Made by a program: the position numbers and the translations under genes. 64,000 nt of DNA, taken from the NCBI GenBank assembly GCA_031291575.1, contig JARLIT010000196.1:1-64000 (forward strand), in the 5' to 3' direction. Below, piece after piece: positions 13,002 to 32,503 of the stretch. The DNA is from Ancalomicrobiaceae bacterium. Its GTDB lineage: Bacteria; Pseudomonadota; Alphaproteobacteria; Rhizobiales; Ancalomicrobiaceae. The notes beneath the pieces were generated by a model that was not told the origin of the DNA, searched no databases, and was given only the letters and a program-made list of their open reading frames with translations. Numbering within the stretch: the first letter of the stretch is position 1; each line of letters opens with the position of its first letter.

Positions 13002-16000
13002 TCAAGCGGCCGGGAGCACGCGCGCCACCGGGAAAGTCACCTGCACCAGCGTCCCCTGATTGACCGCACTGTCGATGCGCATGGCAGCACGGTTGGCCTC
13101 GACCAGCGCCTTGGTCAACGGCAGACCGAGCCCGGTGCCGCCGCCGCGCCCGCGGTCGGGGTGCAACTGGCGGAACGGCTCCAACGCCAACTGGATCTCG
13201 CTCTCGCTCATACCGAAGCCGGTATCGCGGACGCGGATCACCACTTCGCCCGTCTCTTCGCGCGCCGCCGAAACGATCACCTGACCGCCGGCCGGGGTGA
13301 ACTTGATGGCGTTGGACATCAGGTTGAGCATGATCTGCTTGACAGAACGCTGGTCGGCGGCGACCGGCGGCAGGCGTTGCGGCAGGCTGGAGCGGATGAT
13401 GATGCGCTCACGATTGGCCTGCGGCTGCATCATGGCGATGCAGTCGGCCAGAAGGTCGCCCAGTTGCACCGGCTCGAACTTCAGATCCATCTTGCCTGCC
13501 TCGGCCTTGGAGAGATCGAGCAGGTCGTTGACGAGACTCATGATGTGCGTGCCGGACGACTGGATGTCACGCAGATAATCCTTGTAGCGCTCGCTGCCGA
13601 TGGCGCCGAAGCGCTCGCCCAGCATGACTTCGGAGAAGCCGATGATGGCATTCAGCGGCGTGCGGATCTCGTGACTGATCTTGGCGAGGAAATCCGTCTT
13701 CTGCAGACTCGCTTCCTCGGCGCGGCGGCGGGCCGCGGTCAGTTCTTCCTCCGACTTCTTCCACTCGCGAATGTCGCGAATGACCGCACAGTATTTCGCC
13801 TCGTCGGAGCGTTCGTCGGAGATGCGGCCGATGGTGACGACCAGCGGAACCTCGCCCTCCGGATGGAGGAGGCCGAGCATCTCGCGGCCATCGTCGGCCG
13901 CTCCGCCACGCGCCGCCGCCTCGATCAGGGCGAACACGGCTCGGCGGCTCTCCGGCGCCATCAGCGTGGAAAAGTGCCGTCCGTCCGCCTCGTTGTGGTC
14001 GAGCCCGAACAGTCTTTCCACGGCGCGATTGGCCGCGGCGATGTGGCCCGTCTGATCGAGAATGACGACGCCGTCGGTGGCGACGTCGATGATGGCGTCG
14101 AGTTCGCGCATGCGAACTCGCGCGCTGGCGAGCGCCTCGATCGCCGCCTTGGCCGTCGCATCGACCGAGGCATCGACGCTGCGTTCGACGCGGCAGATGG
14201 TCATGACGAGCGCATTGGCGCCGGCCCAGGACGCCTGAGCGATCAGCACCTCGGTCGGCAGGACCTGGCCGTCGCGGGTGATCAGCGGAATCGGACGCTT
14301 CGACGAACCGGAAGCCCAGTCCTTTCCGGCGTGCGGGCCGGCAAACAGCGCATCGAGGCCGCCACGACCCGTGAGGTCAGCGAGACTCGAATAACCGGTG
14401 AGCTTCAGGAAGGCATCGTTGACGTAGGCGAGCGCATCGCCGGCAACGACGCCGACGGCGATCGGCATCTTGTCGACGATCTGCATGGCAGGCGCTTTCG
14501 CCTTCGCCTCGCCGCCGAGTTCGTCGACCAGCGTCTCAATTGAGGGATCTGGCTGCGGCGCCGCCGCGACCGGACGGATCGTTTCGATCGCGCGCGGCAC
14601 CAACTGCAAGGTGGGCCGAGCCGGTTCATCGTCCTCGTCACCCTCGAAGCGGGCGCCGAGCGCTTCGGCGATCTGGCGGAACGCATTGCGCTCCGCGTTC
14701 GACAGCCGCAGCGTCTCAGGCGAGATCTGCGCCACCGGGCGCAGCGACGTCACCTCGGACGCAAACACGGGGACATAGGCGGGAACGGGCGATACGGCTC
14801 GAGGCTCGGGCTCGGCGACTGGCGCGGCCGCCAGCACGAGCGCCTCTTCGGGCGCTTCAGCCACGCAGCCTTGGCCGAGACCTTCGGCGGCTGCCTCCTC
14901 CGGCTCCGGCCGGGCATCCGCGGTAGGAGCGGGCGCAACGTCTGCCTCGGCCAGATCTTCCTCAAGGCAAAGCGGCTCGTCGTCGTCATCCGTCTCGAGC
15001 GCATGCGCCTTGGCGATGATGAGGCCGGTCAACAGCGCATCCGGCTCGGCCGTTGCCGGTCGCACGATGCCGAAGCCGCGGTATCCGGCAAAACCGCTCG
15101 TCCGTTGCGACACCGGCATGCCGGCCAGTTCGACCTCGACCCTCAGCGCCGTGCCTTCGACCGGCCAATGCAACATCAGGCCCTGCCAAGCGGCACGACG
15201 CGACAGCGCACCCGTGAAGACGCCCTCCGGATCGAGGCAGAGGTGGTCGGAGAAGCTCTGCCAGTCGGCACCGATCTCCGGAGCCATATGTGGCCCGAGG
15301 CTTGTGGCCAGTTCCGGCCCGAAGCCGACGACACCGCCGTCCGCATCGATCTGCCAGGCGAAGCGGCTCGTCCTGCCGTCGAGATCGAATCGGAAGCCGG
15401 ACACATCCTGCGATGTCGCAAAGTCGACCGGCAGCACCTCTTCGTGCGGACCGACGTAGAGAAGGCGGCGGAACGGCGCGTCGCCGTCAACGCGGGCGAT
15501 CAGCACGTCGCGGCTGCCGCCGGAGACGCGCACGCGGCGGCGTTCGAGCCGCTCTCCGGTGGCCCGTTCGACCATGGCCTCGATCTCGTCGTGCGCACCG
15601 TCCAGCACTTGCGTGTCGCCGGTGACCGCCAGGATATCATCGGCGCCAAAGACGGTCAGCAGCTGATCCGGTGCCGCATAGAGATCGAGGGTCGCCTCGA
15701 GGCTGGATGCGGTCGCCTGATTCGCGTCCGGCAGCGTGACGACGACGACGTCGGTGCCGTCCGCCGAGGTCAGCCGCTTCAGCACAAGGGTCAGCACGAC
15801 CGGCTTGATGCCGCGATAGAAGCGGACGCGCTCGGTGGTCTGCGCCGCCGGGGCAAGGTTCGGCAGAATGCGGGCGAGGTGGCGCTCGACCGGCTCGTCG
15901 AACGGTACGGTCTTGCCAAGCGCGGCGCCGACGTCGGATATGCCGAACAGTTGGGCGGCCGCGGCGTTGAGGAACCGCAAGCCTTGCCGCTCAGCGTCGA

Positions 16001-16088
16001 CAACGATCACTGGCTCCGCAGCCGAGAAGGCGCTGGCGACTTCGGGAAAGACAACGAGTGAAAGCGACGATACCGGCGAGGCGTTCAT
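13002..16088 (-). CDS. PAS-domain sensor histidine kinase of the PdhS/PleC/DivJ family
   Basis: The 1028-residue protein has no membrane segment and should be cytoplasmic. The N-terminal third holds a degenerate sensor/PAS region (VDAERQGLRFLNAAAAQLFGI), followed by a long acidic Ala/Pro/Glu-rich linker (about residues 350-500). Two PAS domains come next (about 520-640 and 665-790), then the kinase core. His806 lies in FLAKISHEIRTPLNAIIGFS. The following YKDYLRDIQSSGTHIMSL segment is the signature of kinases that use DivK and PleD-like partners. N, G1 and G2 boxes are intact (NLMSNAIKFTP, RDTGFGMS, GGGTGLGLPL). Length and layout resemble Brucella PdhS, a polar cell-cycle kinase. A perfect CtrA box lies 46 bases upstream of the ATG. 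Confidence 0.88.
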   Translation of the reverse strand: MNASPVSSLSLVVFPEVASAFSAAEPVIVVDAERQGLRFLNAAAAQLFGISDVGAALGKTVPFDEPVERHLARILPNLAPAAQTTERVRFYRGIKPVVLTLVLKRLTSADGTDVVVVTLPDANQATASSLEATLDLYAAPDQLLTVFGADDILAVTGDTQVLDGAHDEIEAMVERATGERLERRRVRVSGGSRDVLIARVDGDAPFRRLLYVGPHEEVLPVDFATSQDVSGFRFDLDGRTSRFAWQIDADGGVVGFGPELATSLGPHMAPEIGADWQSFSDHLCLDPEGVFTGALSRRAAWQGLMLHWPVEGTALRVEVELAGMPVSQRTSGFAGYRGFGIVRPATAEPDALLTGLIIAKAHALETDDDDEPLCLEEDLAEADVAPAPTADARPEPEEAAAEGLGQGCVAEAPEEALVLAAAPVAEPEPRAVSPVPAYVPVFASEVTSLRPVAQISPETLRLSNAERNAFRQIAEALGARFEGDEDDEPARPTLQLVPRAIETIRPVAAAPQPDPSIETLVDELGGEAKAKAPAMQIVDKMPIAVGVVAGDALAYVNDAFLKLTGYSSLADLTGRGGLDALFAGPHAGKDWASGSSKRPIPLITRDGQVLPTEVLIAQASWAGANALVMTICRVERSVDASVDATAKAAIEALASARVRMRELDAIIDVATDGVVILDQTGHIAAANRAVERLFGLDHNEADGRHFSTLMAPESRRAVFALIEAAARGGAADDGREMLGLLHPEGEVPLVVTIGRISDERSDEAKYCAVIRDIREWKKSEEELTAARRRAEEASLQKTDFLAKISHEIRTPLNAIIGFSEVMLGERFGAIGSERYKDYLRDIQSSGTHIMSLVNDLLDLSKAEAGKMDLKFEPVQLGDLLADCIAMMQPQANRERIIIRSSLPQRLPPVAADQRSVKQIMLNLMSNAIKFTPAGGQVIVSAAREETGEVVIRVRDTGFGMSESEIQLALEPFRQLHPDRGRGGGTGLGLPLTKALVEANRAAMRIDSAVNQGTLVQVTFPVARVLPAA

Positions 16089-16133: not shown

Positions 16134-16148
16134 TTAATGGTTCTTTAA
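16134..16148. promoter_or_regulatory. CtrA-type binding box in the pdhS-like/phasin intergenic region
   Basis: TTAA at 16134-16137, seven bases, TTAA at 16145-16148: a perfect TTAA-N7-TTAA CtrA consensus. It is 46 bases upstream of the PdhS-like kinase ATG and 170 bases upstream of the phasin ATG. Binding is inferred from the motif alone. Confidence 0.55.
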
Positions 16149-23856: not shown

Positions 23857-23871
23857 TTAAGGTTCGGTTAA
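23857..23871. promoter_or_regulatory. CtrA-type binding box between the PBP1A gene and polA
   Basis: TTAA at 23857-23860, seven bases (GGTTCGG), TTAA at 23868-23871: a perfect TTAA-N7-TTAA. It lies 126 bases from the PBP1A start and 92 bases from the polA start, which diverge from here. Binding is inferred from the motif. Confidence 0.5.
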
Positions 23872-31079: not shown

Positions 31080-31139
31080 GGCGGCAATCCATTGGTGAGC
31101 GATTCCGGCATTCTAGTCGCATGCGCCGCCGCCGCCAAC

Positions 31140-31232
31140 GCCCGCGCAGCCGGCATTGCGAGCGATGTCAGCGGAACGACGCGGACACAACCTGAAACAG
31201 ACTGAAACAGACGTTAAGCGAATGTTAACGGC
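31140..31232 (+). promoter_or_regulatory. Duplicated upstream region, copy A, with a perfect CtrA-type box
   Basis: This stretch aligns with 31948-32032. Shared blocks are CGCGCAGCC, ATTGCG-GCGAT, and ACACAA-CTGAAACA. Near the end is TTAA (31214-31217), seven bases, TTAA (31225-31228), a perfect CtrA box about 50 bases before the chosen start of the next gene. The repeated ACTGAAACAGA motif occurs twice here. Confidence 0.6.
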
Positions 31233-31279
31233 GCATGGCGCATGAAGGAAGCGCGATTCGGTCCGAAGGACTTCCCGTC

Positions 31280-31909
31280 ATGTCCACAGTCGCTGCCGCC
31301 TACACGACCAATGGCTCCTACATCAGCAGCGTCGACCAGCGCCTCTACAAGCAGAGCAACCTGCTGGGGAGCTGGAAAGGCACCATGGGCGGAAAGCCAA
31401 TCACGCTCAAGGTCACCAGCATCAAAGGCTCGACGGCCCAGGTTGAATTCGATCACGGTGCGACGAAGGAACACGGCACTGCCACCGTCAGCCAGAACAC
31501 GCTCACCTACGGCAGCATGACGATCGGCACCAAGAACGGCACGAACGGTGTCATGATCTTCACCGCCGGCACGACGCAGCAGGCCTACCAGCTCACCAAG
31601 GATACCACTGCGGACCAGCCTTCCAGCAAGCTCGTCGGCACATGGTCCGGGTCCGACCCGACGACGGGCGCCGCCATGACGTTCAATGTCAAATCGGTGG
31701 ATGGCAAGACCGCCCAAGTGGTGGCGACTGCAGGCGGCAACAAAAAGCAGACCGGAACCGCCGATGTCATGAATGATATCGTCCGCATCGGCTATACGCA
31801 GATCTCGTCAAGCGACGGCAAGACAGCTCACGCCATGTATAAGCAGGGCAACCAGTATCTCGCGCTTACCTTGACCAAGCAGAAGCCGACCGTTTCCACC
31901 ACGGCCTGA
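31280..31909 (+). CDS. Uncharacterised protein with two copies of a GTW-type beta repeat (paralog A)
   Basis: I do not recognise a family. The 209-residue protein has an N-terminal YTTNGSYIS segment, unit 1 at about 28-97 (LLGSWKGTMGGKPITLKV, GSTAQVEFDHG, GTATVSQN), and unit 2 at about 118-190 (LVGTWSGSDPTTGAAMTFNV, GKTAQVVATAGG, GTADVMND). Each unit looks like a small beta-sandwich or barrel. There is no signal peptide, no transmembrane segment and no cysteine. The protein is rich in Thr, Ser, Gly and Lys. The ATG at 31280 is preceded by GAAGGA and aligns with the start of paralog B; a longer frame from 31235 is possible. The gene and its CtrA-box promoter region are both duplicated downstream. 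Confidence 0.75.
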   Translation: MSTVAAAYTTNGSYISSVDQRLYKQSNLLGSWKGTMGGKPITLKVTSIKGSTAQVEFDHGATKEHGTATVSQNTLTYGSMTIGTKNGTNGVMIFTAGTTQQAYQLTKDTTADQPSSKLVGTWSGSDPTTGAAMTFNVKSVDGKTAQVVATAGGNKKQTGTADVMNDIVRIGYTQISSSDGKTAHAMYKQGNQYLALTLTKQKPTVSTTA

Positions 31910-31947
31910 CGGTCGACTTGCCGCTAGAACACACGGGCCGGAGTCAA

Positions 31948-32032
31948 CGCCGCGCAGCCTGGATTGCGGGCGATATCTGAGAGTACAGCGCAGACACAAA
32001 CTGAAACAAATAGTTAATCTAGTATTAGGAGC
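31948..32032 (+). promoter_or_regulatory. Duplicated upstream region, copy B, with a degenerate CtrA-type box
   Basis: This is the counterpart of 31140-31232. It ends in TTAA (32014-32017), seven bases, TTAG (32025-32028), so spacing is kept but the second half-site has one change. Paralog B starts 50 bases further on. Preservation of the box in both copies argues for function. Confidence 0.5.
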
Positions 32033-32077
32033 CGTGGGTGCATCCTCGCCGGCAATTCGTCCAGGAGGGCATTACTC

Positions 32078-32503
32078 ATGGTTACCATCGTCACGACGAA
32101 CGGATCCTATATCTCCCCCGCCAACGAGGCCGTCTACCACCAGAGCCGCCTGATCGGCACCTGGTCCGGCACAATGAACGGCCAGTCCGTCGCCTTCACC
32201 GTCAAGAACGTCAAGGGCAACCAGGCCCAAGTCGAATATACGCACGGCAGCAAGACCGACCGCGGCACCGCGACCGTCAGCGAAAACATGGTCACCTTCA
32301 ATAATGTGACGGTTGCCACCAAGAACGGTTCGCTCGGCGCGTTGGTGTTCGATTCCGGCACCATCGAAAAGAGCTACAAGGTGACTAAGACCGCGGCCCC
32401 GACGCAGACGACCACCACAGCCTCGTCCTACAAGGGTTCGGGCGGGATATCCACCTCCGCCAGTGCGACCAGCGGCGCCACCGCCGTCGATCTGCTGGCC
32501 TGA
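32078..32503 (+). CDS. Uncharacterised protein with one copy of the GTW-type beta repeat (paralog B)
   Basis: The 141-residue protein is the paralog of the preceding gene. It starts TIVTTNGSYISPANEAVYHQ and carries one repeat unit at about 25-94 (LIGTWSGTMNGQSVAFTV, GNQAQVEYTHGSKTDRGTAT). A Ser/Thr/Ala/Gly-rich tail ends ATAVDLLA, a small-plus-hydrophobic terminus that could be a secretion or assembly signal, though this is only a guess. AGGAGG lies nine bases before the ATG, which fixes the start. It shares its upstream region with paralog A, so the duplication covered promoter and gene, and the second repeat unit was gained in A or lost in B. Function unknown. Confidence 0.75.
   Translation: MVTIVTTNGSYISPANEAVYHQSRLIGTWSGTMNGQSVAFTVKNVKGNQAQVEYTHGSKTDRGTATVSENMVTFNNVTVATKNGSLGALVFDSGTIEKSYKVTKTAAPTQTTTTASSYKGSGGISTSASATSGATAVDLLA

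Follow-up and report, generated by a model that had tools for sequence, protein, structure and literature searches.

Two adjacent genes, each preceded by a sequence resembling a CtrA binding site, raise the question of whether an uncharacterised protein family is under the control of CtrA. The window, by which we mean the whole 64,000-nucleotide stretch of DNA that was analysed, belongs to the genome of an Ancalomicrobiaceae bacterium (G000; 5.58 Mb in 388 contigs). The two genes, A and B, lie on its + strand and are flanked by DUF1192/recF and a dihydrofolate-reductase-like gene, the neighbours being named by reading. A single comparison of the A and B proteins gave 46% identity over 97 residues (E 7e-34), in agreement with the earlier note, which took them for paralogs; a domain of about 80 residues is present in two copies in A and in one copy in B. 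Both boxes were found where that note had placed them (Table 1).

Table 1. Features of the A/B locus and of the Ser/Thr-rich partner genes; positions are those of the window unless another locus is named.
Feature	Position	Strand	Remarks
Gene A	31280-31909	+	209 aa; N-terminal disordered segment and two predicted 8-stranded barrels of ~80 aa
Gene B	32078-32503	+	141-aa paralog; single barrel domain, Ser/Thr-rich tail
CtrA box A	31214-31228	+	TTAAGCGAATGTTAA; perfect TTAA-N7-TTAA, 8/8 half-site bases; box start 66 bases before ATG
CtrA-like box B	32014-32028	+	TTAATCTAGTATTAG; TTAA-N7-TTAG, 7/8 half-site bases; box start 64 bases before ATG
Homologous upstream segments: A	31128-31270	+	local alignment z 12.4
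Homologous upstream segments: B	31937-32066	+	local alignment z 12.4
GGCGCAT	31237-31243	+	at +23 relative to box start, a fixed distance; the -10 region of A may start here, function inferred
GGTGCAT, equivalent in B of GGCGCAT	32037-32043	+	read from sequence; function inferred
Direct repeat of CTGAAACA, two copies	31192-31209	-	TGTTTC on the - strand with a 10-base period; a second regulator may bind here
Single CTGAAACA in the B promoter	32001-32008	-	read from sequence
Ser/Thr-rich partner gene, L004	2975-3595
Ser/Thr-rich partner gene, L007	2246-2887
Ser/Thr-rich partner gene, L028	3093-3755

We evaluated the boxes against shuffled sequence. The window contains six sites with at most one mismatch, compared to 0.87 expected from dinucleotide shuffling, and none of 100 shuffles reached six. 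Box A was matched by none of 1000 shuffles of its own 200-base upstream region, and box B by 2.7% of the shuffles of its own. Local alignment of the two promoters scored 89 against a shuffled mean of 26.8 (0 of 300 shuffles), and the regions 31140-31232 and 31948-32032, which had been described as alignable, are indeed homologous at about 75% identity. The GGCGCAT element has identical spacing in the ortholog G001_A, and in B the element GGTGCAT stands at equal spacing. Direct repeats of TGTTTC/TGAAACA with a 10-base period adjoin the CtrA box in both lineages, Ancalomicrobiaceae and Bradyrhizobium, and lie downstream of the box in Bradyrhizobium; they might be the site of a second OmpR-type regulator.

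A CtrA ortholog is encoded in the same genome (C59:2924-3604). It scored 431 bits with the NCBIfam equivalog NF045991 (cut-off 350) and was 82% identical to the Caulobacter CtrA sequence used as query, the NCBIfam result being independent of this query. The box was not over-abundant genome-wide, with 34 occurrences compared to 33 for the reversed control, so the signal lies in the location of the boxes and not in their number. Outside ORFs of at least 100 aa we found 27 of the 31 other perfect boxes, compared to 16/31 for the reversed pattern (P=0.005); 14 of the 31 precede flagellar or chemotaxis genes, compared to none for the control set (P=2e-5), whose gene neighbours were judged by reading only. 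The boxed motility genes are flagellin, flhA, fliL/flgF, flgB-like, FlbT/FlaF and chemoreceptor genes (Pfam-based names for flagellin, FHIPEP, FlbT, FliL, FlgE/F/G and chemoreceptors; names by reading for the flgB-like gene, FlaF, FliO and some chemoreceptors). In the Bradyrhizobium genome G048 the strict pattern TTAAC-N6-TTAAC occurs at 17 places, including the family gene and, by reading, flgB/fliO and minC. The CtrA consensus, its placement at -35 and targets among mcp, flagellin and minCD genes are documented (PMC11264516, PMC4433202), the targets in S. meliloti (PMC4433202). CtrA acts both as activator and as repressor, with motility genes being activated (PMC4433202), and its activator site usually overlaps the -35 element (PMC11264516).

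Three further places with perfect boxes are recorded here in their own right. A gene for a PdhS-type histidine kinase (13002-16088, - strand), whose best NCBIfam match is PdhS over the whole length at a score below the cut-off, has a box at 16134-16148, about 46 bases upstream. Feedback of CtrA on its own pathway has been reported for Rhizobiales, and the boxed kinase gene is consistent with such feedback. Another box (23857-23871) precedes the polA gene (23963) by about 92 bases. Two boxes, 32 bases apart, are located between hemE and a PPDK-regulator-like gene, both named by reading (L039 1501-1547; G000:C332:21999-22045), an arrangement reminiscent of the hemE/origin region of Caulobacter.

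The earlier note had deduced selection from the A/B pair alone, on the ground that the boxes were retained while the surrounding DNA diverged. This argument failed, as a 7/8 match is no more than expected at 75% promoter identity (P=0.37), and the evidence for selection comes instead from orthologs. When upstream regions were compared with those of orthologs, the check that had been proposed, the box of A proved to be kept. The syntenic ortholog G001_A has the perfect box TTAAATGAATGTTAA at -66, and the first of two copies in G002, also syntenic, has the perfect box TTAAATGAGTTTTAA at -62; in the second G002 copy the match falls to 7/8 and is not significant, 12% of shuffles doing as well. A perfect TTAA-N7-TTAA was present at -77 to -130 in all 37 Bradyrhizobium orthologs examined, compared to 0.01-0.03 of 37 with shuffles. 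These 37 are the loci with an assignable start among 38 taken (L064 was left out), and they are mostly the best-scoring ones, which introduces a mild sampling bias. The Bradyrhizobium record LY.54, the upstream end of which reads the same as that of L064, has a 7/8 box, and Tv2a-2 has an 8/8 box.

With the Bradyrhizobium sequences aligned on the box, full invariance was confined to the eight half-site columns out of 135, which had a mean of 2.0 bits compared to 0.52 in the flanks. A conserved GGCCCTAATC follows 24-33 bases from the box start. If the CCTAAT conserved in these orthologs is the -10 element, the box would occupy about -39 to -25, counted from the transcription start which that element sets, a placement that fits overlap with -35. 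No box was seen in the upstream regions of the single-domain paralogs C45 and C138 or of a copy on a contig labelled Telmatospirillum. The proposal of selection for CtrA control of an uncharacterised protein is thus strongly supported for A, whose orthologs keep the box, and is weaker for the box of B specifically. We consider it well supported, from comparison of sequences, that A, whose protein family has no name, is regulated by CtrA; CtrA control of B is uncertain.

It had been suggested that the promoter was duplicated together with its gene, and the homology of the promoters agrees with this, but the coding sequences do not. In the tree, A groups with G001_A, whereas B groups with C45, C138 and the Telmatospirillum-labelled copy (support 86/87), which are dispersed single-domain paralogs. 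The four-fold sites of A and B are only 46% identical, compared to 75% for the promoters; against the G001_A promoter, that of A and that of B each show 73% identity. We rejected the idea that B is a recent copy of A because its coding sequence groups with box-less single-domain paralogs, although its promoter matches that of A. The low identity at four-fold sites and the grouping of B point to an old split of the coding sequences, with the promoter kept or copied later; the duplication itself may be old, or B may have captured, or been converted to, the promoter of A. After such duplication or copying only A might have stayed under CtrA, leaving the box of B as a decaying relic. The TTAG half-site, a degree of box retention no higher than promoter identity predicts and the absence of a box from the other single-domain paralogs all favor decay, but B keeps the box, nearly the same spacing to the ATG (64 compared to 66) and the GG(C/T)GCAT element, and we regard the relic as a serious possibility that falls somewhat short of an even chance.

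We attempted to establish how widely the family is distributed. Relatives were found in two other members of the genus of the window's genome and not in 12 further Ancalomicrobiaceae genomes. In Bradyrhizobium the family was found in 128/266 species; about half of them gave no match, which identifies the gene as accessory in that genus. It also occurs on one contig (L028) of a metagenome-assembled genome labelled Telmatospirillum, possibly from the same metagenome project. The contig may be mis-binned: its copy is 92% identical to the C45 protein of G000, which reflects either mis-binning or recent transfer. No further genus was added by searching 397 genomes from the order or 385 from the class, and within the genomes searched the family was found only in Bradyrhizobium, one Ancalomicrobiaceae genus and the Telmatospirillum-labelled contig. 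With a Bradyrhizobium copy as query, tblastn gave no match in plasmids, and with B as query no match in phages. Just upstream of each box-less single-domain paralog (C45, C138, L028) there is a gene for a Ser/Thr-rich protein (MTSI...NNWQ/TNWQ); the protein of L004 matched no Pfam or NCBIfam family above cut-off.

The family itself has no Pfam or NCBIfam assignment, as the best Pfam matches fell below the gathering score and none exceeded the curated cut-offs, and a profile search of solved structures gave a chance match only (E 0.65). An AlphaFold2 model built from 9 sequences (mean pLDDT 76.7, pTM 0.50) consists of an N-terminus modelled at low confidence, a short helix and a pair of 8-stranded barrels with a G-x-W motif near the start of each. 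Among solved structures, the folds closest to it are calycin-type barrels of short length, with VIA-align Z scores of about 8-10 (up to 10.2) and an rmsd of 2-3 A over ~80-90 residues, a range of Z that can reflect a common arrangement only. The prediction for the family is a short barrel of calycin-like form, present once or twice per protein.

By reading, the product lacks cysteine and an evident Sec signal, and all 46 homologs read are without cysteine and end in alanine. The lack of cysteine and the final alanine would suit export by a CtrA-controlled type I secretion system, with the C-terminal alanine and a frequent V-[DN]-x-[LT]-A ending as the signal, and a PrtD/HlyD operon of the same genome (L154 124-3747; G000:C176) has a perfect CtrA box about 330 bases upstream. 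However, G001 and G002 carry the family but have no PrtD homolog at E 1e-80, the C-terminal ending is not uniform in Ancalomicrobiaceae, and no exporter gene was seen linked to family genes. We consider export by this route unlikely, and the link was set aside on account of the absence of the operon from G001 and G002. A broader suggestion is that the protein is a lineage-specific CtrA output, a barrel protein of motile Bradyrhizobium and Ancalomicrobiaceae cells that is possibly displayed or released outside, with B having gained its control through the promoter of A; this we find doubtful.

We propose that A is probably a direct, positively regulated target of CtrA, transcribed along with the motility programme. 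CtrA~P would bind the TTAA-N7-TTAA upstream of A and would activate the gene, given that the position estimated from the Bradyrhizobium orthologs is the usual activator position for CtrA. Transcription would then occur in predivisional or motile cells, alongside the other genes that have this box, those for flagella, chemotaxis and the CtrA pathway. B, an older single-domain paralog that shares the promoter of A, may keep a weaker and possibly decaying CtrA input. The product may most plausibly serve the motile-cell programme by binding a ligand or a protein, a function suggested only by the genes that share the box.

Activation was weighed against the possibility that CtrA binds the box and represses the gene, with the protein being made when CtrA is low. 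CtrA can act in both ways and is reported to repress minCD in Sinorhizobium meliloti (PMC4433202), and the start of transcription at this locus is unmapped; the fixed spacing of the conserved CCTAAT nevertheless puts the box at the activator position, and many other perfect boxes precede motility genes, which are CtrA-activated elsewhere (PMC4433202), making repression quite improbable. A different regulator reading the box, with the adjacent TGTTTC repeat bound by another OmpR-type protein, is very unlikely, since in the window's genome this box also stands before flagellar, chemotaxis and PdhS-like genes, as expected of CtrA, even though the Bradyrhizobium boxes are mostly TTAAC-N5-GTTAAC and so also an inverted repeat, the TGTTTC repeats keep their 10-base period in both lineages, and Rhodobacter CenR is reported to bind TGA-N8-TGA (PMC9275681), close to but distinct from the TGA-N7-TGA here. 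CenR was rejected as the reader of the repeat, the TGA spacing being one base off the published motif (PMC9275681), and is kept as a lead. Our preferred reading remains activation of A by CtrA, and the family very probably belongs to the outputs of the CtrA programme, the one behind swimming and chemotaxis, without having been recognised as such.

With this result Bradyrhizobium, which includes symbionts of soybean and of Aeschynomene, gains a CtrA target that is conserved and open to test; a search of the open literature on CtrA binding and flagella in the genus brought up no work on its CtrA sites. Tying the uncharacterised family to the motile-cell programme also narrows the search for its function. 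The open literature yielded nothing on the family or on DUF1194 in Bradyrhizobium. In the Bradyrhizobium loci examined, the gene immediately before the family gene encodes DUF1194 (PF06707); this neighbour (E 1.3e-81 to DUF1194) is a different protein from the family and is not adjacent to it in Ancalomicrobiaceae. With the calycin-like barrels of avidin/streptavidin, fatty-acid binding proteins and Cap15, the family is predicted to have in common an up-and-down 8-stranded barrel with G-x-W in the first strand; it differs from calycins in having no detected sequence relationship to them, only ~80 residues per barrel, and two barrels in tandem. The closest regulatory comparison is the motility and chemotaxis branch of the CtrA regulon in Caulobacter crescentus and Sinorhizobium meliloti. 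The family differs from that published regulon in being unnamed as a CtrA target in the open literature searched; it resembles it in the same TTAA-N7-TTAA site, a compatible promoter placement, the presence of CtrA itself, and boxes on flagellin, flhA, fliL/flgF and chemoreceptor genes.
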